From: Tubiluchus corallicola | Taxonomy: Eukaryota; Priapulida; Priapulimorpha; Priapulimorphida; Tubiluchidae | Direction: 5' to 3' | Length of the DNA: 64,000 bases | NCBI GenBank assembly: GCA_030141605.1 | Contig: JAQGDQ010000017.1 | Coordinates: 1,274,001 to 1,338,000, forward strand | In this document: piece after piece, positions 26,801 to 57,300 of the stretch | Layout of the letters: the number at the start of each line of letters is the position of its first letter | How positions within the stretch are numbered: position 1 is the first letter of the stretch | Position numbers and translations under genes: made by a program | Notes under the pieces: generated by a model | Database searches by the model: none | What the model saw: the letters and a program-made list of their open reading frames with translations, nothing else | Told to the model about the DNA's origin: nothing

Positions 26801-29800
26801 ATTTAAAAAAAGCTGTTGTAGTTTTCAATATTTTAGAACATACTTTATTATGGACTAATGTCTGCACAGTCGTCCATTTTCCTTTAAACATAATACTTTT
26901 TGGTCACAATTTCAAGTTGTATTAACTCTGTAGAGTTTTATGTCTTGATTTGTTTAATCGGAAGATGACTGAACTGATAAATTTAATCACTGTATCATGC
27001 ATTCGCGCCTTCGGCTGCTTGCAATTTATTTCAACGCTGATTTATTGCAGGTACTTACGTATGTGGTGCTGAAGCAACCAACGTCTGTGAAAGCTGTGAT
27101 TTGCTGTGGAGTCATTGTAGGTGGATTCATTCTAGGCGTGGATCAGGAACAGGTTGCCGGTGAGTGAAAAATGAACACTAACCTAGAAAAATCGCAATGT
27201 GTAAATTGAATATTACACGTTATACCCGGTGGTGAATGATTTTTGCTAAAGGGTGCAAAAACAGAGAGTTATAGCACAGGGCAATTTAAAGGAAGACCGG
27301 AGCATTGTTTAGACTCAATCTCATTTTAATTTACTGTCCAAAATATACTATTTCTTGCCTATAGAACTTAGCAATTGTTTCTTATATTTGAATAATTAGC
27401 TTAAAACGTAATTACCGGTAACCAAACACAGCTATTGCCTACATCAGAAACTAACCACAGTTTGTGCAATGGCAGGCATCTTCCCTTGCATGTCAAGCAC
27501 ATTTGCATAAGTGTTACTGTTTAAACGCGGGATGTCTCGAAAAGAGGTTCTTCATCACATGACGTCAGAAACACAGCATAATCATGGTTATCGTGGTACC
27601 GCCTTCTATTTGTTGGCTATGCGAATGTGACAAAAAGGATCCGTTGGTAATCTTACTAGATTCACTGAGCCGCGAGTAGCTTTGAAAGCTTAACAAAATT
27701 TGAGTATCCGAGATAATTATTATTTAATCTAAGCTTTGATTTAAAAAAAGCTATTGTAGTTTTCAATATTTTAGAGCATTCTTTATTCTAAACCAATGTT
27801 TACACAATCATTCGGTTTTCCATTAAAGACACTGAAGACCTAAGCCTACTGAATTTTCAATATTTTAGATTTTCATATATTTTTAATAATATATCAAAGC
27901 ACTACTTGCGTGGGTACCCAATCTTTATGTCGTCAAGCACTTTTCGTGGGGTCTTGGGCTAGTCCAAAAATGCTGTTTTCACGAAAAGTATCTAAGTAAG
28001 TCTTGTTTCTTCAGTCTCTCATTACTTCATTTTGTTCTGGAAAGTAAAACTGGGTTTCTTTGCTCTAAATGCAGTATATCAGTACTTGATTTTCCGGAAA
28101 AACGAAAATGCAAGTTGTTGCATGCTGTACACTTGCGTACAGTGCACACCATTCAAAAGAGTGTCGCTCGGCATTTTACCTTGAATACCTATTGCTGTTG
28201 CATTACTGGTCGCTGAGAAACAGGTGCAACAATCACATGAATGAATTAATGAAACAATCTCTTGTTGTTCAATGATTTGTTGAATAGTAATTGCTCCAAT
28301 GATGCCCTCTAGATTGAAGGCTGTGCAAGGACATGGTATGTTCTCCATTATTTGAGCAATGCTTTTAATATAGTGAATTCTTCTGTTCCGTTACTCAATG
28401 TTTTTGTTTCCCTAGCAAAAGTTTATATACATGCTGTAGCCTTGTATTACGTGTGAGTAAGAACCTTTAAAAAATGCTATTTCTACTTATAGTGCAACGA
28501 GTTTCTGTATTGGTGGAATCATATTTTTGTTTTTCTGTATTTTATAATTTTAGTTTCAAAATTCTAAATTAAAATATGCAATTACTAGTTAAAGCAATAT
28601 TGTGCAAAAAGAAGGAAAGGTAAAAAGTCTTGTCTGAGTCAGGATTTGAACCAGGGTCCTTAGATTATATGTCAAATCTTCAATTCATTTTTTGGCTCAT
28701 TCCAGAATACATCGTACGTTGGGTTTGGTTTCAAAATTCATATTTTACAAAAATGTTTGATTTCAAAACATCATCATTCTTGCTTTCATCATCATTTTCA
28801 TCATTCTTGCTTTCACTTATTACTGCAGAACTTACAGCCGTTTGTAACTAATCACTTAATGGCGTGTTGCTAATCACTTAATCACGTAACAAAGTGGCCT
28901 ACCATAAGTCCGCTCTCTCGTGATTTTAGTCGAGTTATACCAATGGCATAACACAGTATTTTTAATGCAGATTATTACATAAATGTATTGTTAGCTAAAG
29001 TGACAATTTACATGTGTAATAGGATTAAAACATCTTTTGTTTCAAGCTTTGAAAAATCTTGAAAAATAACATTAGTGTTGTTAAGTATGTTCATTAGACG
29101 TTTTTAAGTGCATTTGCAAGCAACAAGTTTGTTAATAACTACACGTGTTACCAGTGTGGATGCTTTTAGACTGTGTTGGTATTACGTTATGTGATGTATG
29201 TGAAATAAACTGATTCAACTTGTTTACGTCATAAAACCACTTACTAATCCTACTTACCAAACTAAAAAAATTGTTTCATTTCAATACAGACAGTTTGTCT
29301 TTGTTTTAGGTACTCTTTCCGTTATGGGAGTAATTTACGGGATCCTTGCCAGTCTTTTCGTGTCTCTAAATGCCATATTTACGAAAAAAGTTTTACCATT
29401 CGTCGATGAGAATATCTGGCGGCTGATCTTGTACAATAATTTCAATGCCTTCTGGATGTTCTTACCCCTCATGATTCTCGCCGGCGAGCTCAACGGGTTT
29501 CTCAGCTTTCCGAGATTATTCGACTACACTTTCTGGTCATTTATGATTCTCAGCGGCGCATTTGGCTTCACAATCGGCTATGTTGGGTCATTACAAGTCC
29601 AAGTGACATCGCCGCTGACGCACAACATCAGTGGGACAGCTAAGGCATGTGCGCAGACTATTCTAGCTTGTGTGTACTTCCAAGAGACAAAATCGGTGCT
29701 TTGGTGGTTGAGCAACGCGGTTGTGTTAACAGGCTCTCTAGCGTACACGCACGTGCGACGCCAGGAGATGAAGGAAAGACACATAGAGGAAGCGAAGTCC

Positions 29801-29845
29801 TTATTAGAGAATGACCAAGACAGCACAGAAAAAAGTGCTGTTTAG
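17879..29845 (+). CDS. SLC35C1: Golgi GDP-fucose transporter
   Basis: Nucleotide-sugar antiporter of the SLC35/DMT superfamily that imports GDP-fucose into the Golgi for fucosylation. Six exons: 17879-17967, 21130-21190, 22739-22879, 24425-24541, 27051-27159 and 29310-29845; phases agree at every junction, giving about 350 residues (human 351-364). Family blocks in order: [19 protein letters not shown] (TM1), [109 protein letters not shown], then a charged cytosolic tail ending KSAV. The start ATG follows an in-frame TAG by zero codons, so no longer N-terminus in this exon is possible. Polyadenylation signal at 29956. Identification is firm. Confidence 0.96.
17998..18072. repeat. 75-bp direct repeat, copy 1
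   Basis: AGCAAAGGC...ACTGAGCAGACAGTACAAAC, then GTAACCAGTGTACTGACTTG and GTTGCTCTG, recurs nearly unchanged at 20126-20203. Both copies are in SLC35C1 intron 1, copy 1 starting 30 bp after the exon 1 donor. Confidence 0.85.
20126..20203. repeat. 75-bp direct repeat, copy 2
   Basis: Same orientation as 17998-18072 with a 5-base insertion (TTATA) and a few substitutions. Confidence 0.85.
22941..23500 (+). pseudogene. LINE reverse-transcriptase C-terminal fragment
   Basis: Reads [20 protein letters not shown], then [32 protein letters not shown] and [11 protein letters not shown]: the conserved 'YLGT...I..R...A', 'YGSETW', 'R..LR.IL.I.W' blocks after the RT domain of non-LTR elements. The frame ends at 23346 and the homologous tail (near 23400-23500) continues in another frame, so it is broken. 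It is 5'-truncated, in SLC35C1 intron 3. Confidence 0.8.
23547..23615 (+). mobile_element. Degenerate SINE-like segment
   Basis: TTCTGATGATTCAGTGACTC and GATAATGAGTCAAGCCTCGG resemble the CTCTGCTGGTTTAGTGGC family, especially the copy at 63252-63345. It directly follows the LINE fragment. Confidence 0.35.
26342..26887 (+). mobile_element. TTAA-flanked MITE, copy A
   Basis: About 540 bp between TTAA at 26342-26345 and TTAA at 26884-26887. Inverted ends AGGAAAACTAGAAGACTG and (minus) AGGAAAATGGACGACTG. The interior matches copies at 27286-27826 and 49934-50458 (TTTGAATAATTAGCTT; GGCAACCGAACACAGCTAT; CACAAACTAACCACA). No coding capacity. In SLC35C1 intron 4. Confidence 0.8.
27286..27826 (+). 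mobile_element. TTAA-flanked MITE, copy B
   Basis: TTAA at 27286-27289 and 27823-27826, ends AGGAAGACCGGAGCATTG and (minus) TGGAAAACCGAATGATTG. Located 126 bp after the exon 5 donor of SLC35C1, same orientation as copy A. The 25 bp beyond its right TTAA (AGACACTGAAGACCTAAGCC) also match the outside flank of copy C. Confidence 0.8.
28622..28682 (-). mobile_element. Single tRNA-like SINE head
   Basis: On the minus strand a B-box-like GGTTCAAATCC is preceded by ATAATCTAAGGACCCT, as in the tRNA-Thr-like heads at 13804-13948. The A box is missing or decayed. Confidence 0.4.
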
Positions 29846-30194: not shown

Positions 30195-31909
30195 CAGTAG
30201 GTGTCATTTAGTTAATAGAATCAGTCGATTAATTGACTCAAAAACACCTGGTACAGACTGCTTCTATTAAAATATGTGTAAAACCTGTCAATGATAGGCT
30301 CAAACAACTCTTGAAGTTTTGAAGTCCTGAATAATATACTTCTAAAAAGTCATTAACGACATACTAGAAGGTTTTGGGGTGCACATAGTTAGTATACACT
30401 CTGCAACTTGTTAACTGGTGATGGTATTGGAAGTTATGAGAAGAGGTGAAACAAGCAAAACAAACATGGCGGGTGCGGGCTAAAAACACAGTTAGATTTA
30501 CAGACAGGTTAGGTGGGATGGCACCCTCAAGGTAGAAATAGCAGAGGGTGCAAGTGCTCGGAAGTGATTTCTCTGATATCCAGTGGAAGTTTGTTCCACG
30601 AATGTATTGCTCTGGGGTAGAAGGAGTATAAATAAATATTGACTCTTGCTGATGACTGAACAAATTTGTTGTTATCTTTGAGAGATGGGGTGATGTAAGT
30701 TGGTAAATTTATACCTATCCTGTGATGCACTATATCATGAAAGATGTTTAGTATCGTTTGACGACGTCTAATTTCTAGTGTTTCCCAGCCGAGTTCCGAG
30801 ATCATCCTAGATACTTCATTTCTGGTATATTCATTTTGTACAAATCGTGCTGCATTTTGCTGGACTTGCTCGATGCATTTTGCATTTATCAATGCTAAAG
30901 TCCATAAGCCAGTTTTCCCCCCATAATTGTAGCTGTGAGAGATCATTTTGTAGGATATGGTGATCGTGATTACTCCATATAGGTCTGTACAGAATCGAGT
31001 CATCAGCAAATAGTCGGATGTTAGATGATATATTGTCACTGATGTCATTTATATAGAGGAGGAATAATTGACTCCTCATAATTGACTCAACATGTGTGCT
31101 TTTAGTGGTTTAATAAGACACTTTTGTGGGACCAGTAAGCTTTTATGTCATCTTAGTTTGTTTTTGTGCTTTAATAAGTAGAAACAATCATGTTGTGTAC
31201 CGTTTTGTTTATAAGCAGGTACATTCATTATTTGCTAATATGCTACCCTAGCGGTTTTGCACCTCACCCATACACTGCAATTAACATCATCCCCAAAGAA
31301 TTTGTGGACATTTAATCACGTGTCTAACAGTTTGCTTTTCAAGCTTTTGCTGCCTTTCAAAGAACGTTTAATCTGTTAGCAGCTGATGTTATACCAGGGA
31401 TGCAGGTACAGTAAAATAAAGTGTTGCAAAGTTGACGGTAGATTAACGGTGAAAACTTGAATGCTTGCATGACAGCTGTGTTGTTTAATGAATGGTTAGT
31501 GAAATGGGATGCAAGCTTAAAGTGAAACATGCATCTAAGTGTTTGTGCATCATACAGCAACAGGTTTTCTACATTTTTATCATTATGAAAACCTTGTGAC
31601 ACATTTTTGCAAAAAAAATGACGCAGCCGACTTTGAACAAATTTTTGTAAATAAACAGACTTGTGTGATTTAGAAAAGTAAACTATTTTATTAATTCACT
31701 TTATAAGTTAATATATTTAAACAGCTGCATAGGAATTTAGGTATTACTTCATTTCTAAAATTCATTACCTAAGCCTTTGGAGTGCATACTAAGCTGATGA
31801 TTCATATTTATATACTAGTAAAACTACATCTGTCAGTTAATGGATTCTTTCGGTTAATTGGATCAAAACACTTAAGTCCCAAAGTGTGTCTATTAAGCGG
31901 CGCCTGCTG
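30195..31909. mobile_element. TA-flanked MITE (CAGTAGGTGCCGC family) split by a LINE
   Basis: Ends CAGTAGGTGTCATTTAGTTA and, on the minus strand, CAGCAGGCGCCGCTTAATAG, each next to TA. Outer parts align with the intact 767-bp copy at 44461-45227 (TTGACTCAAAAAC.CCTGG; TTTTATGTCATCTT; GTAGAAACAATCATGT). The extra ~760 bp in the middle is a LINE fragment. The pogo/Tigger-like TA duplication and CAG ends suggest a Tc1/mariner-superfamily source. Confidence 0.75.
30316..31077 (-). pseudogene. LINE reverse-transcriptase fragment nested in the MITE
   Basis: On the minus strand: QLFLLYINDISDNISSNIRL then FADDS, the RT catalytic YxDD-equivalent box, continuing in a second frame with NIFHDIVHHRIGINLPTYI and AIHSWNKLPLDIR, the usual C-terminal block of CR1/Jockey-like elements. 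Frameshifted, 5'-truncated at the FADD region. Confidence 0.85.
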
Positions 31910-33201
31910 TATTAGAACCTGTTTTTCAACAAAATCCTTTCAAATAATGAATTAATTTCTAGGGTGATAGTGTTTTGGTCTGTGCCCGATAAAAAAGCTC
32001 TGCATTTATGCTCAGAGTCAAGTACAGCTAAGGGAACAATTCTTTTTTATTTTAATTTCATATTTTTTTATCTCACTGCTTTCTATTTCTAACATTAGTT
32101 TACACTGGCTACTTATTAGTGCAAAATATAGTAATTAAGTATGCATGAACACATGTATGAATTTGTTTGTACTATAACAATGGCCTAATAGTTATATAGG
32201 AGCTATATTGTTTTAAGACAGATAAGATGTAACAAAAGGAACTACTGTTAAAGAAAATTGTTGAACTTTATTATACATAATTGTTAGTTGCAATAACAAA
32301 CTGAGGTTTATATTGCATGGTTTTTATTGATGCAAGTCTTTCATAAAATGCTTTTTCACTTGTCTTGTGAGATAAGTATTTTTTGTTTACTTAAGTCACT
32401 TCAAAACACAGAGTAATAAAAACACTGGTTCTTTTAAGCTTTGAACTGGTGTACATCAGATAGCTTGGAGTACTGACACACTTTCAACTGTGCTCAATCA
32501 ACTTGACAATTCAAATCATATAGAAACTTCTGACTCAATGTCACCGCTTTTGTTGTAATAACATTAGTGAGACAATTGTTCTATTTGTTGTACAAGAATT
32601 AGAGAAGTAGCCTGGATGATTCTACGGGTAACATTTGATCTCCGGTATTTTGGCTGCAAATGATAAATAACACGACTGGATCGTCGTATTAACAATTTCA
32701 AAATTTGAACAAAATGCACAAATAGTAACAATTTTGTTGCAAAATATTGTGTTTTGTGCCACCTGCTATTGAACTATTAATCTTCTGCTTGTGCCAAGTA
32801 CTGTATCATGAAAGACGTCAAGCATTTATAGGCTAGAAAAGAATTCCCACTTCCACAAAATCTCCAAGTTTCTTATTGTTCTTGGACTTATTTGTTATGT
32901 ATAACTTTTAAAATAAGATTTTGTTGTATTCTTTTTTAAGGAGAATTTTGTACTTCGTACAATCGATGTGTTTATTCAAATGTTTTGTGTACTGATATAT
33001 AAACATGTTGTGTGGCTGGTTATGCACTGAGTGCATGTGTGTTTTTTCCAATAAATTTAAAGATAGATGCAAGTGCAGTGTATTGAGTTATCCTCTGGTT
33101 GTATTCGTTTCTGCTAAGTCCCATCTTTATTTGTTCATCTGGAACAAGCTATGATAACTAACAATACATATTCAAAAATTAAAAAAACCATGTTCAAATT
33201 T
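31910..33201. other. Intergenic DNA without recognised features
   Basis: AT-rich; no plausible gene, repeat family or RNA was seen on either strand. Confidence 0.5.
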
Positions 33202-33488
33202 TATAGTTAAAGCACCACAACTTTATTAAAAAGTTAAATTTACATAGTTAAAAAATCGTAAAATGTTTCGACAGAGCTACTGCTGTCATCATCAGTGGTA
33301 AATTTTTACAAACATACTAGTTTATATAGGCAGAGCCTACAGCATAGAACATTATGTATTTTATATAGGCTCTGCCGTCTACATAAACTGGTTGTATGTT
33401 TGTAAAAATATACCACTGATGATGACAGCAGTAGCTTTGTCGAAGTGTAAATTAAAAGTTTTAATAAAGTTGTGGCGTTTTAACTATA
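33202..33488. mobile_element. 290-bp foldback (long inverted repeat) element
   Basis: The left arm (ATAGTTAAAGCACCACAACT...TACTGCTGTCATCATCAGTG...TATAGGCAGAGCCTA) is matched on the minus strand by the right arm across nearly its full length; the loop is only ~20 bp around 33345. Arm length is ~130 bp with scattered mismatches. No open frame. Confidence 0.9.
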
Positions 33489-33671
33489 AATGTTTTTAAG
33501 TGCCTGTAATAAAAAATATTCAAAATTGCTGTTCTATACAATAATATTCATTATGCATCCATGAATAATACAGCAATAAAAGTAGCATTTACAAGTAATA
33601 ATTACTGTTTAATTAAATGTACAATTACAATTTACAAGTACTGAACACGAATTTTAGTCAAATGTTAATGG

Positions 33672-35019
33672 TGTTCGTTCCCACATTGTTAATCTCTTGT
33701 GACTGAGTGTCGTGCCCACAACAGTGGTATGAATAGAGCATATTCTCACAATGCGATGACAATGGCATTGTTGCCTCATAAATAGACCTCATCCCCATAT
33801 AATAGTGACTCCCACATGACTGAAACTCATTCTCATAACAGCATTATTGCCAAATGGAGGTCATTTCCATAACATTATGATAACAGCATTAGTGCCACAT
33901 GACTGGATCTCAAGCCCACACAACAGTGGGTACTCTCACATAAAACGAGCTCATTCCCATAACATTATGATAACAGCATTAGTGCCACATGACTGGATCT
34001 CAAGCCCACACAACAGTGGGTACTCTCACATAAAACGAGCTCATTCCCATAACACTATGATAACAGCATTAGTGCCACATGACTGGACCTCATGCCCACA
34101 CAACAATTGGTACTCTCACATAAAACGAGCTCATTCACATAACAATATGATAACAGCATTAGTGACATATGACTGGACCTCATGCCCACACAACAGTTGG
34201 TACTCTCACATAAAACGAGCTCATTCACATAACAATATGATAACAGCATTAGTGACATATGACTGGACCTCATGCCCACACAACAATTGGTACTCTCACA
34301 TAAAACGAGCTCATTCACATAACAATATGATAACAGCATTAGTGCCATATGACTGGACCTCATGCCCACACAACAGTTGGTACTCTCACATAAAACGAGC
34401 TCATTCACATAACAATATGATAACAGCATTAGTGACACATGACAGGACCTCATACCCAGACAACAGTTGGTACTCTCACATAAAACGAGCTCATTCACAT
34501 AACAATATGATAACAGCATTAGTGACACATGACTGGACCTCATGCCCACACAACAGTTGGTACTCTCAAATAAATGGAGCTCATTCCCATAACACTATGA
34601 TAACAGTGTTATTGCCAAATGGAGCTCATACCCATAACACTATGATAACAGCATTAGTGCCATATGACTGGACCTCATGCCCACACAACAGTTGGTACTC
34701 TCACATAAAACGAGCTCATTCACATAACAATATGATAACAGCATTAGTGCCACATGACAGGACCTCAAGCCCACACAACAGTGGGTACTCTCACATAAAA
34801 CGAGCTCATTCCCATAACACTTTGATAACAGCATTATTGCTACATGGTTGGACCTCATCCCCACAACTGGAGTACTCCCACATGAATACAGCTCATTCCT
34901 ACAATGTTGTTCCTAAATTAATGGAGATCATTTCCACATAAGTGTTATTCCACGTAAATGGAGCTTGTTTCCACAACACCATTACACCCACGTAAATGGA
35001 GCTCTTTCTCGCAACAGTG
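33672..35019. repeat. 90-bp minisatellite derived from the ACTR8 last exon
   Basis: About eleven 90-bp units in regular register between ~33871 and 34860 (each with GATAACAGCATTAGTGCC, CCACACAACAGTTGGTACTC and AAAACGAGCTCATTC), with degenerate 38-41-bp units on both sides. Each 90-bp unit holds about two diverged copies of a ~38-bp ancestral unit. That ancestral unit matches 35020-35060, the final codons and stop of ACTR8 on the minus strand (LLRERAPFTW). Because 90 is divisible by 3, open frames run on both strands (33847-34941 plus; 34055-34549 minus); they are read here as by-products. Confidence 0.9.
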
Positions 35020-38000
35020 TTATTCCCATGTGAATGGAGCACGTTCCCGCAACAGTCGGTATCCAAACGTCTTCCACTCTCGCTGTCGAATCCACAACTC
35101 CTGCGCAGTATCCAAAAGAGACATCACGGAAGCCCCTTTCCATGCGGTTGTTCTCGGATCCGATTTCTACAAAAAAAGACCCACTTATTACGACTTTAAA
35201 CAGAATCATTTTTGTCAATTCAATCTCTCATTTTCATTGGTACCATGTTGTACTGAATTCAATGAATTAACATATTGTTACTGAGGCAGCTGTGTCGGGT
35301 CAGGTGTAGGGCTCTCTACACGCCCTGCTTCCACGTCAGCACCGACTCACCCCTTTCTTGTATGTCCAGACGTCTTGTTTGGGCCTACACGTGGTGTGAG
35401 AAGCCAACTGACCTGCAATGCCAGTATAAAAGCGTGTAGAGGTCACGACAGTCTGGATTTCTGACACAGGTGCTCCTCGGGTGTAGTGCTGTTACTGCGT
35501 TAGTTAGTTACTTTTTTGTGCACGTGTATTTTGGTTCCTTATTTTTATTAGTGCTGTTAATAAACTCCGTACAGTGTAGTTTTTTTGTGTATTTTGTTTT
35601 ATGCGAGTTATATGACATGCTATAACAGGTATAAGGTACTAGTTTACAGACATTAATTTAGCTAATTAACATAACATTTGTAATTAACATTAACATTTGT
35701 AATTAAGTATCGGTTACACAACGATTATATAATGGAACTTCATGATGCGCAATATCAAGACCGCCATGCCATCTTGGAGTTCGACCCCCTGGGTCGAATT
35801 CAGTCCAATATTATTAATTTATTCAGTAATGTACACTTATGGTACATTTACTTTATGCTCCTTGATGCAAAATATATATTATCACACAACTAGAATCAAT
35901 ACTTGTTTACAGTTTCAAGACCTCAAAATTGACAAATTGGAACCAATTACTACTGCTCTATTAAATTACGACAAATGCACCTACTGATCTGATGTTCTTA
36001 CATAGAGACATTAACATCATTCACATGAAGCTGGCAACACAATTTGATAATTTGATAAATATAATATAAGGCTACTAACATTTGATCAGATTTTGCAAGT
36101 AAACTTGACCCGAACAACCTACCAAAATTCACTTGCCAATTGTGCATTGAGATAAACTTGACTAAACAAAAATTACGCTGCATTGCACATGCAAGCAACA
36201 TTACCCTTGGTTCCGTAATGACTTCGACTGGCTCCGACTTCAAATGTGGGGGCGCTGTAATGCTGACTCTGTGACGCAGCCAGAACTCGGCACCGGTGAA
36301 CATCATCCCACCTCCAACCATGAGTATCGTGTTCACCATCTTTCGTTTCACCTCAATGTCAGGATCTGAAACAAAATTTGTAGATTTGTTATAATTCTTG
36401 TAGATTAAAGTTATAGTTCTAGTAAATTAAATGTAGGGGATATGACAGCACACAAGTCTAGCATTTAGTCAAAAGTAAATTTTCTAAAAAAATGGTAAAA
36501 CCAAGATAAAGTTAGAAACCAAAATTAAAAAATTACAAAAAGAATTACTAATTCGTAACTAATTTTTTTATTTTTCATTTAGTTTTTAGTTTAGCAGTTC
36601 AGTGTCTCTTAGCACACTAGTTTTTAATGTTTCTGAATTGGGTGAACAAAGGAAGGTATTTGGGTAGGACCTGAATTTTGTTGGTTCGGATTTATTAGTA
36701 AACAATTTCTAGCAAAAAAGATTAGGGTCGATGATAATAAATATACGTTGGTCAAGAAAGAAGGCATTAGATAAGCATAGGGAGAAGAAGAATGGTCCAA
36801 CGCTAACACGCCGCCCGAGCTGCGTCAAGATAGGTGATTACCAGAGGTGACGATAATGCCCATTTCTCGACTGCCATCCTTCCTCCAGTACATATCCATG
36901 TAATTAATTAAGGCTGAGTAGGTCTAGGAAGGAGTCCCATAAAGTCCTATTTCAGTGGTAAATGGTTAAAAAAACCCAACGTGAGTGAGGTTTGAACACT
37001 GGACTTCTGGATCGGCAGCCAACAGGCATAATCACTCAGCCACCGTGTGCAAGAATAAGGTAAAATTGTACACTAGAATATGTTGCACCTATAGCGTAAA
37101 GTGAATCGTTCCTTAGGCTTAGTTTTAACCAGGAGGCATTCATCAGAATCATCATGTCCAACTCACCACATCTCTCGATGCTTCGAAATATCGCCTGATC
37201 TATCGGAAGCACCTGTACAGCTTCCTCAGCTATCCGGTCATTCTCAGTTGCCTGTTCCTCGCTCGCTTCCTTGCCTAAATTTGATGCTTCATCATCCCTT
37301 GCGATGTCGTCATCAAGCTGTGACTGGGCAATTTGCGCATCGTCTGCTTGCTGTTCCGTTTCTTGTTTACCTGGATCAGTGGTAGGATCCTTGACCCGCC
37401 TCTAGATAGGAAAAGAAATGTGATTAGTCTTTCCTAAACATGGGAATAAAAACAGGCTGAATTCAAACCACTGACCCTTTGCTTACAAGGTGAATGCCTT
37501 CACAGAGGCCAAGTAGTCTAGTGGTCATGTGGTCATTACATTCGCCTTGTAAACAAAACTCCTTGTTTCAAATCCAGGCTGTTTCATGACTCGGTCACAC
37601 TTTTTTCTTTTGGAGAAGCTCGATTTCAATGCAATTTTGATTCTGATTACAACTTTTTATAAATGACATTGAAATCAAAATAGAAACAAAATTAAAAGAA
37701 AAGGATCTGGTATTAAATAAAGATAAAACAGAAGACTATCAGATAAAAATGAATGCATGGAGAAAATGCAAATACTAGACAGTGCTCTAACAACAGATGA
37801 AGATATATCAAGAAGAAAAACCTTAGCACTAGCAACATATTCCAAAGTAACAAAATTTTTTGAAAGTAAGAGGATCAGTCTAGAAATAAAATTAAGAATC
37901 TTTCCTGCACTTGTGTAAACTGTGTTTCTCTACAACTCCGAATTGTGGACAATCAAAGCACATCACAATCAGAAATCGGTGCATTCCAAAAAGATCTTAT

Positions 38001-41000
38001 CAACACACCATTAGATATCAAAAATACAGAGACATAGGATGTTACAGGTGACAGAGCAACCTGGTCTAAAGTGATTGCAAGTGCCATGTCAGAGGACGTT
38101 TGACTCCGGAGATGATGATGATGCTTTCAAAATTTAATGACTGCAGACTCATTTCGATAGAATGACTTACACGTAACTATTTTATCCAGTTCATGCTGTA
38201 CATCAGTAAAAGCTAAGGGAGAAATTCAGTAGCACTAAAAGATGGAATAAATTATTATTGTTCAAAGCTTGTATGTTAAACAACACATATACTTCACAGA
38301 TCTTTATTAGCTAAAAATATTAAGTGAAACTTAGCAAATTTATGATAAAACAGTAGATGTGACAATTCAAGCAGATATGGACATATAACTCCATTTTTAT
38401 CACTGTCAAATCTTCCATAAAACACACCTTAATTTGATTTAAATAATCGCCATCAAAAATGTCTTCCGGATCCGTGTAATTTCTTTTCCACTTGAGCACA
38501 TGTTCCGTGCCGGACATTCCAAATAGTTCTGGCGCAAAAAGAGCCAAAGGTGCCATCATGCATTCATCTCCGATACTAACGGAATATTCCCAAATTTTCT
38601 GCCCTGGTTGCTTCACGTGTATCGTCTGAGTTTGCAATCGACAGTTTGCCTACAAATATATATTAAGACTTTTAACCTCTTGTTTCTCAGATACAATGCA
38701 TACAGAATCCCAGCCGTTTTTTGCAATTTGTAAGTATGTACGAAACTATGTAGGAATATTCCGTATTTTACATATATAATAACATTTTTATTTGATTATG
38801 ACTATGAGACCATGGACTCTGCTAAATGAAGTATATGAGAGTCACTAATCATCGTCATTTAAGGCTAGTATGCTAGCAGCTTACCAAGTTGTAGTTCTTA
38901 ACCAGTCTTTTTTTATATTTCTGCTTAAATTGCAAAATTTTTATCTATTTTTTTACATATAGTAAGCATAAAATCGTTCATAGTAATGTGAGAAAGCTAA
39001 AAAATGATTCGCTTCCTCTAACTGTAAACTAAAGTGATTTAGTGCACTTTCGCATGATGTTGACTTCCCTTGCTACTCTAGCAGTTGCACACTACATAAC
39101 ACTATGCATCATCAACAGGTGAATCACAGCAGCTGCTGTAGAATGCTACCTGTCTCTAGTTAGCAGCTAGAGATTCATCATGGTCTCAGACACTGTATAT
39201 AAGTGAATGAGGGAGCACCTGATTTATTCGGCATGCATGGGAATACGGTGTACTGCCAACTGCCAGATATACCTGGTGTTATAGAGAGTAAAGTGGTTCA
39301 TTATTCATTTTGAAGATCTTGAAACAAGCTACCTATTAACTTATTAACTAAGGGCACAGAAACAACCTTTTGTATAAAAATATATGGTCCCAGTTTCCAT
39401 AAAATTGAACATGCTGAGATCCATAAAAAGTTTCATAAATTTTATAACAAAGTTTAATGTTCATCTGTTCCTAAATTTTATAAGAGTATTGCCAAATTCC
39501 ATAAGAATGTTTAAATACATGAGCATGTTTCTAAGCTCCACTGTAAAACATAATATCCTCATATAACAATATCTTATCATTGTACTAACCGTTGAAACAA
39601 ATGTGCAATTTAGTCGTGGGTTATTTTAACGGATTTTAATTGATTATAATCTATTTGGGCTGTTATCGATTATTTTTCTCTGCTGTCAATACAAATCCAT
39701 TGTATTAACAGTACTATTTTCCTCATATTTTTCAGAAAATGCACAAAAATTGCACGTTAAATATAGCCATGATTGCAGTAAAATCGGATAATATCTTTGC
39801 CTGGTAACTTAAAGCATAGACTTAGACATGAAAGTTATTCATAAGCACGAATATTGGTTTTCACGAGCACCTGTTTTCTCCTAAAATTGCTGACTATAAT
39901 AATAATTATAATTATAATCGATTATTGAATCAGTTTCACGTCCAATTACGAGATTACGAAAATGCAGCCAATGCTCCACCACTACTATGCAAAATATCAA
40001 ATCATACTCTATCGGATTAGCATTAAAGCTTAGTATTAAACAAGTAACTCTTAAAGTGGAAGAGCAGAACTTGCCAAATCCATATGACAGAATTGCTCCT
40101 TGATGGTTTGCAGAAACATGGCATCCGTCCTACATTGAGGATTGCATTCTTTATATGGAAACTTGAAGTTCTTTAGCAACTGATAAAAAGCCAAAGACAC
40201 ATCGCTCCCTCCATAGTTAAAATGAAGCCTGTAACAAAAAAATAAATGGTACTTTACCAATAAGAAAAAGAAAAAAACGTATCTTTCACAGAAAATGGAG
40301 CGCACAATTTTAATGTAAATGGTTATGGTAGGACCAGAACTGAGCTCATTACCAAACACAATCCTCTGAGATGAAACACCGAAAACTGACAGAAGCATTG
40401 TAGCCAATTTCGAATGCACATACAACTTCCTTTAATTAGGTGAAAAGCTGAAGTAGCAAAATAAATGAACGTGCCAAGCAATCTTCACTTACTGGCCGGA
40501 CTTGGCACAGCTTAACCTCTGTCGCTAAACACACGCCGTGACCATCAAGCTATATCTGTAACCCCACTTTAGCGATTAAATGAAAAAAGGCGCAAGTTTC
40601 TCATTTAGCATGTTTTAGTCATGCATTTATCCCACATTTTCATAAATCTATCCACGTTTAAAACATAAATAAGGATAGTCTCACCTGCTATTGGGCAAAA
40701 TTAGTCCATCTTCTACACAACACACACTGGTTTTCTGATCTCCTACATCGACAACGCAACCTGAGCTTACACCAGCTCCAAAAACAGAACACACTGATTC
40801 CTACAACACAAATATTTTACTTGAATAAAGCACGGGTACATCAGTTTACCGTTACTATATTGAATACTAATATAGTATATATATAGCATTTCAATATAGG
40901 TGTTTGTTTTAATTGGTAAATAACGACTGCATTAGGCAGCAAGTGCTGTGTGGACTAGCCTAATCATCAGCACGTGCCATATCACAATTTTAACACCTTT

Positions 41001-44000
41001 GGATTATAAATTTGTCTGAGTCACAGTAAGCACTATACAGCACCAAGATCATGTCAAGCAATGCACTTTAACATGTACACAATTTTGAATTGAAGTTAAA
41101 AAGTGCCCTTTATTTTATATTATAAATTAAAAGAATTTCACACTAACCCCTGGCCTGTGTGCAATACATGATTGCCAACGCATTATTATCCAGACAAAAT
41201 TAATAATACACTAAATATTTCCTAATCACGTTTGGATCCTGACTAACCAATGGCAAAACAGCACTCAATTAGGATACATCTGACACCCATTCCAACAGAT
41301 AAGCACAGTGTAAATACCACAACTAACTCATCATTCTGATTTTGGAAATCATTCAATTGCTCAAAGCTGTCGTTTAAAGGTTTTTAAATTAACATAATAC
41401 TGCTACATTATAAGTCACCTGCTGTACAAAGCAAGCAGCAAACCCAAGTCTAGTGAGCAGAAGATTGGTAAGTTCTCGAACGTGCCACTTGTTATAAGAA
41501 TCCGGAATGATCAGCACGGCTCTGTAATGCTAAAGCAAATATTAAACTCAGTAACTCATAAAATAAAATGTAAGAAAAGCAATAAAGCACAGTAGAAATT
41601 TACAGCCAGAAAGACAAAAGTATGTCAGTTAAGTTAAAACATTTTAAACAAAAGATTGTTTCAGTCGAGATTAATAGGCAAAAATATACAGCCAAACGTG
41701 AGTTGTTTTTTAGCATTGATAATGGCTAAAGTAACCGAAATGATTACTTGCGCTAAATAAATGTATTGATTTCTAGAAGCTAGTTCTTTAGTTTAAAAAA
41801 CATTTAGATTCTAATGGAAATGTTAGGCACAGACAACTATTTCAGTTGCTTTAATTTAGTAAAATATACAGCCAAACATAAGTTGTTTTTTAGCATTGAT
41901 AATGGTTAAAGTAACCGAAATGATTATTTGCACTATTAAACACGTTGATTTCTAGAAGATTTTTCTTTAGTTCGAAAAACGTTTTATATTCTAACAGAAA
42001 ACTGAAGAAATGTTTTTACTAGAAAATACAGATGCAAACGTTAGTCTCTTAAGATTTAAAAATAGCCCTCTCTATTGGCCTCCCTCTCTGTTGGTTTATT
42101 TTAGTTCAAAATCAAAAGGACGCACAAGTAAACATATACACTATTTTCTGTGAAAGCTTCAACTGATTAAAAATAATTCAGTATGAAAATGGCTAACTTG
42201 TGCATTACTTTTGGACTTGTGCTGTGGAGTGGGAAAAATAGAGAGCTCTGAACACTACAGTATAGGGCAGCAAAAACAGCAGGTAGACTAATGCTAAAAT
42301 GAATTGCTATTAGTCCTGGAAGAGCACAGCTTCTTAACCAAACAAATGTAAAAATTAGGCTAAAAATTTCTTGATAAATAATCTAAAAAAATTAGGTTAA
42401 ATTTACTAACATTAAGCTTGCTTACTTTTAAATCTTTGATTGGTATATTCAGATAGTTTGAAATTGCCACACTCCATATTGACTCTAGATCATTCAATAC
42501 TGCTGTGAGAGATCCTCCTACGTTGCCATGGAGATTCAACTGCCCTCTTCTCATTGGCCAATGTATACTGTAACCAGAGTTTGGTTGAACCAGTAAAGCC
42601 TATTAAAAATGCAATCAAAATGGTACTGTACGGTACTGCCAATTGCTTTGACACACCATGTAACATATGAAAAAATCATTACACCTATATGCAAAGAAAG
42701 CTTTACAAAATGTACACAATGGTTAATCAACTTCGCAGATTAAATACACTTTAAATTGTTAATACCTCGTCACCCACTAGAAGCAAAGGATGATGTGTAG
42801 ACGTGTTTGTCCAACTCACATCCGAAAGTTCTTCCAAAACTCGTTTCTGCGCTCGAAGGTTAAAAGCGATCGTCTAAAGCAAAACAGGTTAAGAGTTAAA
42901 ACACAACAAAACCCTCCACTTACATAAAGCTTAAAAAATCCGTCTTGAAATTTTATACCACTTACATACTGCCTTTTTTCATCAAGTGTTTAAGCCGGCC
43001 AAAACGCTGTATAAAACGTGAAAATTTAAATTCCCGCGATGGCCGTTAGGCGCAGACATTTTGATGGTAGGTCGTTTGAAACAAATTTCGATAGCATTGT
43101 GTGAAGTTTGAAAAAATAATCAGAGCATTCGTAGCAAACATGTTGCTAACAAAGTAAATTTTATATTACTATATCTTGTCAATACAATTAAAAATAAATT
43201 TAATAACCAGTAATAATAAATCATTTCAAAATAAAAAATGCCATGATGTTTAGCTATTTGCTGTCACTCACAGTCTCACATAAGTGCAAGTCTCGATGTT
43301 AAAAGAGAAGTACATCTATTTAAAGGGAAGAAAATGGAATTTCAAAGTAAATCCCCAAAACATCCCTTACAAAGTTACATTACTTAGCATTACATTCACT
43401 TGTTTGAAAGACATATGTAATTGGAAAACAAAATTCTTAATAATACAAAATGTTTGCACCATTGATAAAACAGCACCATATTATCATCCTAATGTGCACC
43501 ACTGACTCGCCAAAAATGCATCATTAACCATTTTTTACTGTTTTTTTAAGTTATATCGCCAATACAATTATCCTAGCTAAAAACAGATTTTGTGACATAT
43601 CGTAACTTCTATGAATTTTTTTATTCTTCTAGTACAATATTCACAGATGTTCCTAAATATACAGGGTGTTCCAAAAGAAACAGTGCTCTAACAAAGGCTA
43701 TGTCAATATTACATGAAACAAAGTCCAATAAGTATGGTCATACTAAATTACATGGTAGAAAATTGGTGTTATGATGTAAAAATATATTATTTTTATGTAA
43801 TTAAGATATCATAATGTAAAAGTCCAGGTTCATTTTGTTATATGTGATGTATACTGCACCATTTCTTCTGGAACACCCTTCTACTTTTTTAATGAGTCCT
43901 ACTAATTCCACTTTTTCTGAAACATCAGTGAAAATTTCATAAAAATATTGCTTATGACAGTATCACATGGAAAGTTGTAATTTTAGATGATCGGACGTAC

Positions 44001-47000
44001 CTGTTCAGGTAGAGTCTGTCGCCATTGGCAACTGGTCGTTGATTTGCATGTCCACATCATGTCCTCTGCGGTGTCCACACCTTGTTGGTGAAGAGACAAA
44101 TATGAATCCTAAAAAACACACAACCAAGCAAACAAAATAGAAAACAACTTTGATAAAAAAATTTTAGAGCTAGGTAACTACTTTTTTGTTGCAGACATCG
44201 TTTTTTTATTACTGCTTCCTTAGAAATTTTTATCTGCTTAAAAGGTAATGCAATAACACAAAACAATTCTCCTTCTTGCTGGATACTTCTTAAGTGTCAG
44301 AGCTCACATATCCACGTCTTAACCATCACACACGCAAAAAAAGTTGCTGCTTTTTTTGGGAGTAAGCTGCCAAGTGTTCAAAGTTTCTAAAGTTCCCTTT
44401 ATAGAAAGATTCCACACTAGTTTCACACTAGAAATGTACAGTCACGGAAGTTCAACACTACTGTAGAGGCCACTTAATAGACTCACTTTCGGACTGAAGT
44501 GTTTTGACCCAATTAACCGACTGAACCTATTAACCGATAGGCATAGTATTACTGGTATAGAAGTATGAGCCACCAGCTTAATATGCACTACAAAGGTTTT
44601 TAATGAATTTTAGAAACAAAGTAATGCCTAAATTCCTTTGTGCAGTTAAAAATTAGAAAAAATATTTTAAAATATTAATTACGTATAAGTGAATTAGCAA
44701 TAAATTAAAAAGTATAGTTTTCTAAATCACACAAGTCTGTTTATTTGCAAAAATTACTGTACCTGCATCAGTGAATGTTGGCTGATTAAGTGTGAAAGCA
44801 TGATTTGCAACGAGAGCTTCAAAAGGAAACAGCTAGACAAGTGATTAAGTATTTACCTTCCAGAAATTCTTGGGCAATGCAGTGGATGAGCAGGCAATCG
44901 ATTCAAAGCAAAATGGCTATGCTTGTATGCTAGCATATTAGCGCGTGGTAAACGTACCAGCTTACAGACAAAATGCTACTTGACATGATTGTTTCTACAT
45001 ATATTATAATTCACAAAAGCAAAGTAAAGATGACATAAAAGTAGGAAAAGCTGTTTGGGCACACACAAATGTCTTATTTTAAGCATGTGAAGGGAAAATA
45101 CTGAGTCAATTATGCAGAGTTATTTGAGTCAATTACTGACAGTTTTTATGTAAATTTGAATAGAAGTGGCCCGTGCCAGGCGTTTTTGAGTCAATTAAGT
45201 GATTAAATCTATTAGCGGCACCTACTGTATATACGGTGTGTTCACTTAATACAAAAATCGATGATGCATACATGGTGCTAATGCTTCAATGTCGAGCGGG
45301 TAAACCATAGATAATAATATTACAGCAAGCAGAAGACAGCATTATTGTTATAGCAATGTTGTAGATATGAGGAACACATTGTACTTTTTTACCCACTAGC
45401 CATTCGATGGTGCAGCGTGTCACCCATTCATGCATTCGATGGTACAGTTTGGTTTAAAAAAAACATTGTTTAGTTATTTCAACATTTAGAATCAACTCAC
45501 TATTTGTCCAACTCCAGGAAGTATGAGATCTTCATGGCATTTAACATCTGAAGTTGGATTCCGCCGAGCAATCACATGTGGTATGGTGATTGGAAAGGTG
45601 TCAGATGCACGTCCAATTCGGAGATTTAAGGAACCAGGATGTATTACAACTATAGCCGTTCCCTGGATAGGTCCCTAAAAGGAAAAAAGCACTTTCCTAA
45701 TACTGTTTTAAATTAAATAATCTGTACAGGCAGCACAGTCACTAATTAACGTTCACAATCATTATGCTGGAATAATGATACTCAAGATCTATTGTTTTAG
45801 TTCCCCAATGTGACCGGACTCTGTCATCCATTTTCATCATATTCACACAGGACAACACTCAATCGATGAGATTCAAGTTGCCAGAGTTCATTTAACTAAA
45901 ACTCCTCACACCACTCAAACTCAGCCGGCCTGGGGACACCACACGAACACATATCACGATACTAACCTCACGACACGATATGTATCACGACACACAATAT
46001 ATATATATATCAAACTATCATCTTAAGAATCCTAAATGCTAAGATAATTCAGCAAAATGTTTGATTTCTGTTTATACTATAGCATTGTTTGCAATGGAAG
46101 CCCACAGAAATGCAGCTTTTGATTTAAAATATGCTGGTGCGTTTTATGGTACACATTTGCACGAAGCCATTTCAGTAACTTACAAGCAAAAACGTAATTT
46201 GCTACTACATATATGATTACAAAAGACATTGTGCTTTAAACCACTTCACTTTGGCTGGCTGCTAGCAGCAGGTGCCTGTGTCAAGGTCAAGTCTGCTCCT
46301 CTGCTAATACTGTGTTCACTGCACTGATTGTGACATTCTGGAGCTAAACTACAGTACTTTGTACAGCTGCGGCTTGAATCATATCTCACAGTTTTAATCA
46401 AGCTTGTGCTAAATATCAATGATTCAGATTATTGCGATACTGGTTCACTGCGACGATACATGTACTGCCACAAAAGATATCATGACGCATAGATGCATTG
46501 TTACAGGCCTAGTTAGTAGGAAGTGCTTTAAACTGTAATTCCTCAACAGGTCTATGTGTTTTCACTAACGTTTGCAAAGCTTCAATTCAACAACGTATGG
46601 CTCTGTGAATGGCAATCCACAGGTTAAAAAATTCAGTAATGGTAAGTCTTTCCGACAGTATAGATCAAAACTACGACAGATGGCAGACTTTTCCATACCA
46701 AATTGCAAAATTGCACCTCTAGTCGACGTGCAAATGGAATTTAACTTTGACAACCCATCAGTTTCCTCAGTCTTGACTCCACCATCACTAGCTACAGCTA
46801 CACCAAGCTAATCAACATTGACATCAAAAACACTTATATGTTATTATCAACGTCGATTTAATGCTTTTTATTAACATGGCTGCTTATAACATGTGAATGT
46901 CTTTAGGTCTATACTTGAACTAACTTTTCAAGTCACCCGTTCTTGCTTCCACTCACTATGCCTGTGCACAGTCAAAGTGTGTCTGCACGGCATATCTATA

Positions 47001-48344: not shown

Positions 48345-51300
48345 ATGGCTTCCGCCCTGTCTGATGATGAATTTCAACGAATGCAGGTAATTTGAATTCA
48401 CGAGCCGTTATCAACCACAGAAATATTTTCTACAAAACGAAAATGATTTGATTTGATACATCTATACGTATAACTCAGACAGTGTACTGTTATACTTAGG
48501 GTTACCATATTGTATGAGTTGGAAAAGAGGACACTTGCACACTTGTAATTTACAGTAAGTAGGCCAAAATGACCAGTCTAGGGTCTATTAAAACAATGCA
48601 AATTATACAAATAGGCCTACATGTATGGTCGACTGCACAGATATGCATAAAAGTCTTTGCATGACAGATGTTTAAAATGATGCTGAACAAAGAGAATTCC
48701 TTTCACGGATTCAACATGCAACTTGTTTCTTTCCTTTGTCCACTGGCTTTGCATAAGTGAAAACACTCGTTCAGTGTTAGCATTGTGTGATGGAATCATT
48801 TTAAGTCATTAGCGAATACGCCGAGTATCGACAGCGGTGTGAGTCGTGTGACCCATAGTGATATGTGCATCGCTTACTTTCGTTCAGTAAATATATACAC
48901 AAAGCTTTTACAAGGGTTGCAGCTTGAGATGTTAGCAACATCTTGTATTGAAAATTAACGAGCTTTTCTTTGTCTCGTACTGTCGTATGCCTCTGCAGTT
49001 GGCAACGTCCGTACATACGGATTGAGGCAAAACCCGGACAAACTGCTGATTTTTTGAAAACCCGCCCGGACAGAGGCCCAAAAAGAGGACGTGTCCAGGG
49101 AAACCCAGACGTATGGTAACCCTAGTTATACTATACCGCTTCTTGGTCTTTCGGTTGCATCAAAATTTCAGAACTATTAATAAGTATTATAGGGCTTACC
49201 ATAATTAGTACATTGGACATTGCCACAAAAACAAAAAAAATAAAATAATGATTATGTAATTTCATGTTATAATTAGTTATAATGAAAAATTTATCGTTGT
49301 TTTTCCTTGTGCAGATGACAGTTTGAATGCTTAAATGTTGCATAGTATCCAAGTGGCACTGTCTGTGGTCACAGTGTGATGTTTGCGTAAACTGAAGTCT
49401 AGTTGTTTACATTGCATTTCAGAGAATTCAAAAGTAATACTCGAAAAACTGACAGTAGAAGTACTAAAATTTCTTTTCCTAATATGTTCAATGTGCATAC
49501 ATGTACAATTGTACATATGCATGCCTACATTATATTGCCTATTTTTAGGCTCAGTTACTGGAGCTACGAACTTCTAATTACGATCTTGACAATAAATGCA
49601 GAAAATATTACCATGGTGAGTATGATTTCACAACAATTTAAGTAATCGTAGCTGATCCTTGTGTATTGTATTTAGACTACTTTTACTGCAGTTCTTCAAT
49701 TGCAAGCTGTCTGACCAGTATATTTTAATTAAGAAGTTGTTTTGGTGTTTAATTAATGCAACAATTAATTATTAAGCTCCATTAGAATAGAACTGTCCAT
49801 TTGGCTTGAAAGGCAAGTGCATGAAGGAGTCTTTAAGAAAACTGCTGGAAGTTGGTGAAGTTTCTTTTTTATAGGAGTGTACTAGCAATGATAGGCAGTG
49901 ATTTTATGTAGTAGGCTTAGGCCTTCAGTGTCTTTAATGGAAAACCGAACAATTGTGTAAACATTGGTTTAGAATAAAGAATGCTCTAAAATATTGAAAA
50001 CTACAATAGTTTTTTTTAAATCAGAGTAAATAATAATTACCTCAGATACTCAAATTTTCTTAAACTTTCAAAGCTACGCGCAGCTCTGTGAATCTACTAG
50101 GATTGCCAACGGCGCGCCTTTTTGGCACATTTGCCTGGCTAAGAAATAGAAGGCAGTACCGTGATAACCATGATCATGAACTGCAGTGTTAGTTTCTGGC
50201 ATCATATGACCCCATTTTCATTACATCACGCGTTTAAGCAGTAACACTTATGCAAACATACTTGACGTGCAAGGGAAGATGCCTGAGCTTAGTTTCTGAC
50301 GTAAACAATTGCTGTGTTCGGTTGCCGTTAATTAACTTTCTAAACTAATTATTCAAATATAAGAAACGATTTCCAACTTTTACACGCAAGAAAATGTATA
50401 TTTTGGGCAGTAAATTAAAATGAGACTTAGTCTAAACAATCGTCCGGTTTTCCTTTAAGAGAACTGCTCGAAGTTTGTATAAAGCTTTTTTGATGTAGGA
50501 GAGTACTAGCAATGATTCAGTAGCACCTGCTTAATCAAAATGAGGATAAAAACTCAGGCAGTGATTTTATGTGGTAGGCTTAGGCCTACAGCAAGGGCCG
50601 GCTCTAGGTAGCTCGATGTCCTAAGCAAAAGTATTTTTAGTGCCTGCTCCTGCACATTTAACCCCTTCCCCCACGTTCCCCACCAAATTTCCAATATTGA
50701 ATTTTTCTTGTATAATATTATAATAAAGTGTAATGTGTAATAGTACCTGTGCATTAGGATTATACAAGTATTATAATGTGCTAATTAAGTGTAGTTAATC
50801 ACCCATCTACAGCTTGTGTTGATTGAATATGAAATTTGATTTATGACCTCATTGAACTCTAGATGACACGCCTACCTTTCCTTGTCTGTATTTTGTCCTG
50901 TAGACTTTGATTCTTATAGGTTTATCTGCCAGTTAGGTAAATGCTATTGAATTTTATAACGGAAAGGTCATTATATAAACACTTATGTAGAAATTGCGGA
51001 CAAAAGCAGTGTAACGTATCAGTAATGTCTGCTTGAAGTGACGCAATATTTTTTATAAAGGAAAGTACAGTGTTTTGCTAGGGGAAAACTCTTGCTGGCC
51101 ATCACAGCGAATCATACATTTCAACAAGAAAATAAGTCAGTTTGTTCGTTTAATTTAATTAGTGTTGTGCAGGAAATAGTGTAGTTAAGGAAATACACAT
51201 ACACTATGCTATTACTTATACTAAATCTAACAATTAAAGAATTTCTTCCAAAATTTGACACCCCAAAATTTGGCACCCTATGTAGCCGCCTAGTTGCAGA

Positions 51301-54300: not shown

Positions 54301-57300
54301 GACGAATTCAAGCCGAAAACGAAGCTCTGCGCAAAAACTTTACAGGTTCATTTTATGTCTTTGCTGGTTCAGGTTTTTATACTGTGAATATAAAAATATG
54401 CATTGTGTCCTGGTTTGAGTTTAGACTAAATTAATTGTCAGTTGTTCTCACCAATTTATCACAAATGAATATCTCTTTCCCTAGTTTAGCATTGCTAGCA
54501 TAGCTGTTAACAAAAAAAACCTTTAACGGACATCAAGAAAATATAATTTTTGTTAGCTATACTTTCGTTTTCCCTTGTGTTAGCTGCACTGAGGTCTTTA
54601 TTATTAAAATGTATGTGATGAAGCCAGTGAGGGTGGAATTGCAATTAAATTGAAATGTCATTTCTGTTAACTTGTACTTCCTTCTGCCAATACCTGTGAA
54701 TTCGCAAACAACTTCGTAAATAGTGTGGTGGCATAACGCATGTGAACTGCAATGACTTTTACCTCTAAGGCCTTTAATGTAAAGTTTTGAGTCTTAAAAG
54801 TCAGATTATCTCTGTCGTGTAATGGTTAGCATAGTTGGCTAGAAACCTGGAGTTCTTGGGTTCCACTTCTAACAGAGGTGTAAAACTTATCAGACATTCT
54901 AATTTAGTATTGCTTTTGCACATTTATCTGATCAGGAGCAAAATGAAAATTGGGTTTACTTGATCGTAAATTACTTGTTTCATTCATTTTAAGCAGAAAA
55001 TGTGAAGAATGTGCATTTTTTTTACAGAAGCAGAAGAAAAACTGAAGAGTAGTATTTGTGACTTACAGGAAAAAGTTAGGTAAGTAGCCAGTTTCATATA
55101 CTCTTCTGTTCTTCATTTTTACATTAAATGATGATAATAAACATCAGCAAAATCAGAATTTTCTCTCAGATTAATTAGTGGCCCTGAAAAAACTCTTCTG
55201 GAGTGGAAAAAAAGCTAATTTTTGTGCAGTTCAGCTCACTGAGAGAAACCAGAGTCTATCACTTATTGACAATGTCTACTTAATGTAGGTGATTGGGGCA
55301 GGACAGGAATCTAGTTCGATGTCAATAATATTTTTGATGTTGAATGATGGCCAGTTTTTCACAGCCAAAGTTATTGGAGTAAATTTCTGTAAAATTTGAT
55401 TTTTATTTGATGACAGAGTTCTCAGTGAGATTAACTGTAAGCTGGAGTCAAAATGCTCTCAGCTACAAAGCGAGAGCGGGGAGGATGACAACTTGGCGAA
55501 AGAGACTTCCGCTGAAGAACTTGAGGCCAGCGAGAACACAGGTGAATAATCATCTTATTCATTTGTTGCTGTTGCTTGATTTAGTTAGGGAATCTAAAGC
55601 TGTCTTTGATGGTGTTTCATGTGCATGTAACAATATTCAACTAACATTCATGGCTTACAAGCTTTGTTGGTTTATGTGGATATAACAATATTCAACTAAC
55701 ATTCATGGCTTACAAGCTTTGTTGTTTCATGTGCATGTAACAATATTCAACTAACCTTCATGGCTTACAAGATTTGTTGGTTTATGTGGATGTAACAATA
55801 TTCAACTAACATTCATGGCTTACAAGCTTTGTTGTTTCATGTGCATGTAACAATATTCAACTAACATTTATGGCTTACAAGCTTTGTTGTTTCATGTGGA
55901 TGTAACAATATTCAACTAACATTTATGGCTTACAAGCTTTGTTGTTTCATGTGAATGTAACAATATTCAACTAACATTCATGGCTTACAAGCTTTGTTGT
56001 TTCACGTGGATGTAACAATATTCAACTAACATTTACGGCTTACAAGCTTTGTTGTTTTATGTGCATGTAACAATATTCAACTAACATTCATGGCTTACAA
56101 GCTTTGTTGTTTCATGTGCATGTAACAATATTCAACTAACAATGCTTACAAGCTTTGTTGGTTTATGTGGATGTAACAATATTCAACTAACATTCATGGC
56201 TTACAAGCTTTGTTGTTTCATGTGCATGTAACAATATTCAACTAACATTTATGGCTTACAAGCTTTGTTGTTTCATGTGGATGTAACAATATTCAACTAA
56301 CATTTATGGCTTACAAGCTTTGTTGTTTCATGTGAATGTAACAATATTCAACTAACATTCATGGCTTACAAGCTTTGTTGTTTCACGTGGATGTAACAAT
56401 ATTCAACTAACATTTACGGCTTACAAGCTTTGTTGTTTTATGTGCATGTAACAATATTCAACTAACATTCATGGCTTACAAGCTTTGTTGTTTCATGTGC
56501 ATGTAACAATATTCAACTAACAATGCTTACAAGCTTTGTTGTGTCATGTGGATGTAACAATATTCAACTAACCTTCATAGCTTATAAGCTTTGTTGTTTC
56601 ATGTGCATGTAACAATATTCAACTAACATTCATGGCTTACAAGCTTTGTTGTTTCATGTGCATGTAATAGTATTCAACTAACATTTACGGCTTACAAGCT
56701 TTGTTGGTTTATGTGGATGTAACAATATTCAACTAACATTCATGGCTTACAAGCTTTGTTGTTTCATGTGCATGTAACAATATTCAACTAACATGGCTTA
56801 CAAGCTTTGTTGTTTCATGTGAATGTAACAATATTCAACTAACATTTATGGCTTACAAGCTTTGGTGTTTCATGTGCATGTAACAATATTCAACTAACCT
56901 TCATGGCTTACAAGCTTAGTTGTTTCATGTGGATGTAACAATATTCAACTAACATTCATGGCTTACAAGCTTTGTTGTTTCATGTGCATGTAACAATATT
57001 CAACTAACATTTATGGCTTACAAGCTTTGTTGTTTCATGTGCATGTAACAATATTCAGCTAGCATTCATGGCTTACAAACTTTGTTGTTTCATGTGGATG
57101 TAACAATATTCAACTAACATTCATGGCTTACAAGCTTTGTTGTTTCATGTGGATGTAACAATATTCAACTAACATTTATGGCTTACAAACTTTGTTGTTT
57201 CATGTGAATGTAACAATATTCAACTAATGTTCGTGGCTTACAAGCTTGACTATACTATCTTCTAAAAACTGAGACAAACTAGCTGCTGGAAAAAGTTTTC

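Follow-up and report, generated by a model that had tools for sequence, protein, structure and literature searches.

The window, by which we mean the whole 64,000-nucleotide stretch of DNA that was analysed, holds the ACTR8 gene on its minus strand. The stop codon is reached at 35020, and the protein ends in LLRERAPFTWE-stop. The start of the last exon (35166) was placed by eye, after an AG. In a phmmer comparison with human ACTR8 (4fo0_A), this exon (35166-35020) matched residues 549-593 of 593, which is the C-terminus, with E=8e-16. The human tail at the corresponding place reads MLRERAAFVW; the exon tail here is FGYRLLRERAPFTWE-stop and its human counterpart is FGVRMLRERAAFVW. Yeast ARP8 likewise aligned to its end, more weakly than the human protein. 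Moreover, five upstream coding pieces matched 4fo0_A in the same order as in the human protein, and one more piece, at 37039-37401, had no PDB match and was assigned to ACTR8 by eye. The assembly searched comprises 343.5 Mb in 2344 contigs, and the protein of the terminal exon alone gave a single match in all of it. A tandem array of about 1.4 kb lies 3' of the stop codon and reaches to about 33650. The features of the gene and of the array are collected in Table 1.

Several other features were recorded in the window. An open frame at 29204-29842 (plus strand), tail to tail with ACTR8, gave a weak triose-phosphate transporter match (PF03151, E=7.2e-6, below the cut-off). In the last ACTR8 intron, at 35281-35720 (35240-35740 in wider limits), a TATAAA and an AATAAA were seen, and a solo LTR is possible there by eye. 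A near-perfect inverted repeat just past the array (33200-33490) has arms of 51 and 45 nt that are 96% and 89% complementary, and resembles a MITE or a fold-back element. Remnants of a reverse transcriptase (30834-31109, minus strand; PF00078, E=5.3e-4) and of a hAT transposase end (48620-48805, minus strand; PF05699, E=0.0025) were both below the cut-off. The open frame at 5939-6277 (plus strand) matched the voltage-gated calcium channel alpha-2 family above the cut-off (PF08473, E=4e-7). In addition, a second large minisatellite occupies 55613-57247 (55-bp unit, 29.9 copies, 91% matches) and begins about 65 bp past what by eye appears to be the end of a coiled-coil exon.

Table 1. ACTR8 and array features in the window; the ranges of the upstream ACTR8 pieces (36001..45674) are open frames and wider than the exons.
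Feature	Position	Strand	Remarks
Upstream ACTR8 piece	45495-45674	-	human residues 12-58
Upstream ACTR8 piece	42363-42599	-	human residues 140-199
Upstream ACTR8 piece	40054-40431	-	human residues 273-327
Upstream ACTR8 piece	38323-38649	-	human residues 329-394
Upstream ACTR8 piece	36001-36426	-	human residues 495-548
Last ACTR8 exon, stop included	35020..35166	-	48 residues and stop; final 36 bases found the array
Copy 1 (founder 38-bp unit)	35018..35055	-	11 terminal codons, the stop and 2 further bases
Copy 2, LLRERAPFTWV-stop, 38 nt	34980..35017	-	no spacer after the exon
Copy 3, LWKQAPFTW without stop	34943-34979	-	directly adjoins copy 2
Copies 3-5, degenerate, 35-37 nt	34871..34979	-	hand segmentation
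Higher-order 90-bp array with a 45-bp variant	33857..34899	-	less regular on the exon side
Left-end degenerate copies, six	33650..33875	-	hand segmentation
ATTAAA, candidate poly(A) signal, first of ten hexamers past the ACTR8 stop	33608..33613	-	about 40 bases past the array

Layout of the array and its homology to the exon end

The exon 38-mer, when aligned locally, matched 32 times, the exon itself counted. The stretch was divided by hand into 33 units with hand-set starts, namely the exon and 32 further degenerate copies. The initial annotation had described the ACTR8 end as repeated with its stop codon and then once more without it, and copies 2 and 3 are indeed present and free of spacers. 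In the first 30 bases, copy 2 differs from the exon at five positions, and all five differences are synonymous, which by our judgement rather than by computation is slightly more than neutral decay of copy 2 would be expected to leave. The copies beyond copy 3 measure 35-50 nt and lead into the 90-bp array. Each 90-bp unit is built from a 40-mer (the B half-unit) and a 39-mer, with an 11-bp partial copy (CTGTTATCATA) between them, and the A half-units are the other half. Tandem Repeats Finder reported 8.5 copies with 95% matches at 33857-34621 and 3.1 copies with 86% matches at 34622-34899. The copies had also been described as ever more diverged. This was roughly true of copies 2-6, whose identity to the exon was 0.76, 0.68, 0.66, 0.62, and 0.63, but not of the two left-most copies, in which it was back up at 0.70 and 0.69. 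The identity to the exon thus shows no steady fall with distance, which counts against the origin that we favour below.

To evaluate the homology, the 28 copies whose starts lie no higher than 34870 were made into a profile, which was run against the two strands of the window after 33640-34980 had been masked. The best match was the exon end at 35054-35019, in register, with E=1.8e-6, followed by copy 2 with E=0.0068, and the best unrelated site had E=0.55. A profile built from copies 3-6 alone matched the exon with E=9.1e-5, and one built only from left-end degenerate copies (five of six) matched it with E=2.7e-5. Identity at chance level between the exon end and the array, which had been named as an outcome that would refute the proposal, was therefore not seen. 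These results showed that the array is homologous to the exon end and in register with it.

Single tiles and single half-units gave a less uniform picture. Among 4166 background tiles the top score was 26. The tiles closest to the exon scored 30-40, and many array tiles scored 19-25, which is inside the upper tail of the background. On the wrong strand, scores as high as 28 were reached by some tiles within the 90-bp array. With the ten B half-units alone, neither the exon nor copy 2 was among the six best matches listed. The eleven A half-units alone matched copy 2 with E=0.051 and the exon stretch on the wrong strand only (E=13). Since the single halves miss the exon, the 90-bp units are tied to it through the whole copy set and not half by half. 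The word pair CAACAGTCGGTA and CAACAGTTGGTA, which the initial annotation took to show that the homology reaches coding sequence, exists, but it says little on that point. A 3-base insertion at a copy junction produces the array word in one alignment, so that the bases past the 38-bp unit are perhaps not homologous.

It could be argued from the half-unit results that only the 38-bp copies beside the exon derive from it and that the 90-bp array is a separate minisatellite lying next to them by coincidence. However, the far copies jointly match the exon in register, and the degenerate copies that lie beyond the 90-bp array match it as well. MAFFT also places the exon and copy 2 along the A and B halves, a result to be read with the reserve that MAFFT aligns any input. 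We consider an unrelated 90-bp array quite unlikely.

The region 3' of the stop codon and the direction of copying

Ten poly(A)-type hexamers were searched on the minus strand from 35019 down to 33613, and none was found before ATTAAA (Table 1). Because no hexamer occurs until 33613, which is past the array, the array is probably 3' UTR, as the initial annotation suggested, and would account for most of it in ACTR8. RNA structure was rejected for a 181-base stretch of two units, which folded at shuffle level (z=-0.31); 73 of the 200 shuffles equalled or exceeded its stability. An open frame of 373 codons on the opposite strand (33820-34941, plus strand) spans the array, and its length owes something to the fact that 90 is divisible by 3. 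This frame was rejected as a gene, for 3259 of 5000 shuffled units were open in at least one of the six frames. Furthermore, 16 of the 17 distinct substitutions among eight 90-bp units were nonsynonymous, compared with 217 of the 270 possible single changes, which gives no sign of constraint.

Lying after the stop codon and ahead of the first poly(A)-type hexamer, the array is placed as would suit a regulatory or structural element of the ACTR8 3' UTR that is kept by selection. Yet the shuffle-level folding of two units and the degeneracy of the copies both argue against such an element, and we regard it as decidedly improbable.

The exon end is conserved to human ACTR8 and, more weakly, to yeast ARP8, and it is therefore older than the array. 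The changes in the copies were examined at the CpG sites of the exon. At positions 7-8 and 13-14, where the exon has CpG, TpG was present in 30/33 and 27/33 aligned rows (exon counted). To allow for the non-independence of the 90-bp units, 11 representative rows were also counted, hand-picked so that repeated 90-bp units entered once per half; T was found in 10 and 7 of them, respectively. The CpG observed/expected ratio was 0.28 in the array compared with 0.59 in the window. At positions 26-27 the exon has CA, copies 2 and 3 have CG, 19 rows have TG and two left-edge rows have CA. A possible reading is an ancestral CG that was silently lost in the exon (ACG to ACA), but the two left-edge CA rows make this ancestral state uncertain. 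At position 15 the exon has T and all 11 representative rows have A; CGT and CGA both encode Arg, a silent difference. Two of the 11 rows also had the A that the exon has at position 27, and five had its C at position 24; position 15 was the only strictly exon-private base among the positions compared. The array may thus keep an earlier silent state of the exon, with A at position 15 and possibly ACG in place of the present ACA.

The direction of copying is from the exon to the array. The exon-derived origin proposed by the initial annotation was borne out by the human-conserved exon end and the match of the copy profile, on which it depends, and also by the CpG decay in the copies. An older array, one unit of which was captured by the ACTR8 exon as a new C-terminus, would be in keeping with the homology but is scarcely credible, because the terminal residues align to the last residue of human ACTR8, yeast ARP8 was also aligned to its end, and the copies resemble CpG-decayed descendants of exon-like sequence.

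Origin of the array, possible exchange with the gene and known systems

The account that we favour, at a probability of roughly 0.88 for the whole of it, is a minisatellite that had the terminal codons of ACTR8 with their stop as its founder, was amplified, homogenised and decayed at CpG, and is probably 3' UTR and functionless. The founder unit would have been amplified by slippage or unequal exchange. A dimeric 90-bp unit would then have spread across the middle and homogenised that part, leaving degenerate copies at both edges. The 90-bp middle would be younger than the degenerate edges, an order of the two amplifications that we infer. The exon would be the edge copy on the side of the gene, maintained by selection on the protein, and the remaining copies would have decayed as non-coding DNA, mostly through CpG loss. 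The array would then make up most of the ACTR8 3' UTR and would presumably have no specific function there.

To evaluate the consequences of exchange between the exon and the array, the exon was joined by computation to each copy wherever a base matched. Copy 2 gave 29 such joins, all of which kept LLRERAPFTW followed by V or E and the stop. With copies 3-33, many joins truncated, changed or extended the tail (the five commonest outcomes per copy were listed). The joins with copy 2 are harmless and the outer ones often are not, so the protection of the gene would extend mainly to exchange with the copy closest to it. A C-terminus liable to conversion or length change, as proposed in the initial annotation, is conceivable on these results. 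Since the unit holds the terminal codons together with their own stop, the array could be proposed to exchange with the gene still and to act as a buffer: exchange with copy 2 would restore a near-normal tail, and rarer exchange with outer copies would give altered, shortened or extended ACTR8 alleles. If this were true, array length and C-terminal sequence would co-vary in natural populations. The base at position 15, found in the exon and in 0 of the 11 representative rows, is evidence that the array has not recently converted the exon at that site, and no clear trace of array-driven conversion was seen in the exon when these rows were compared. We consider continuing exchange of this kind unlikely.

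Minisatellites are head-to-tail tandem arrays of units of some 7-100 bp at a single locus, and a satellite DNA family is one repeat that recurs at numerous loci or builds very large arrays. The units here measure 38-90 bp and were found at one locus only. All 11 assembly matches of the 90-bp unit, all eight matches of a 24-base pattern in which 3 mismatches were allowed (reversed control, 0) and the sole match of the exon-side 201 bases of the array, which was to themselves, lay at this locus; these counts are lower bounds, and strongly diverged relatives may exist elsewhere. On these counts the array is a minisatellite and not a satellite DNA family, and the same repeat at unrelated loci without ACTR8, the other outcome held to contradict the exon-derived origin, did not appear among these matches. 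The founder sequence of a minisatellite is often unrecognisable. The ACTR8 founder was kept readable by selection, so that the direction of copying, the CpG decay and the later homogenisation are legible at one locus. Among the papers listed in literature searches, no title or abstract opening described a minisatellite seeded by the last codons and stop of a gene, and a printed case may still exist.

In the model of Haber and Louis (1998), as summarised in PMC6947457, minisatellites arise from short local duplications, and direct repeats of 5-10 bp flank the founder motif. The array resembles such minisatellites in its short unit and single locus, and the amplification described for them is by slippage, conversion or unequal exchange (PMC6947457). 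Unlike the founder in that model, the founder here is a conserved coding end with a stop, which makes the direction readable. The original sequence 3' of the ACTR8 stop is not preserved. The human SLC6A3/DAT1 gene has a 40-bp VNTR in its 3' UTR. The array shares with that VNTR tandem units of about 40 bp, its own location in a 3' UTR being only probable; it differs in that its unit derives from the adjoining coding end and that it is known from one assembly. Overall, the array is clearly a minisatellite that arose from coding DNA, and otherwise a rather ordinary one, amplified and homogenised in what seems the usual manner.
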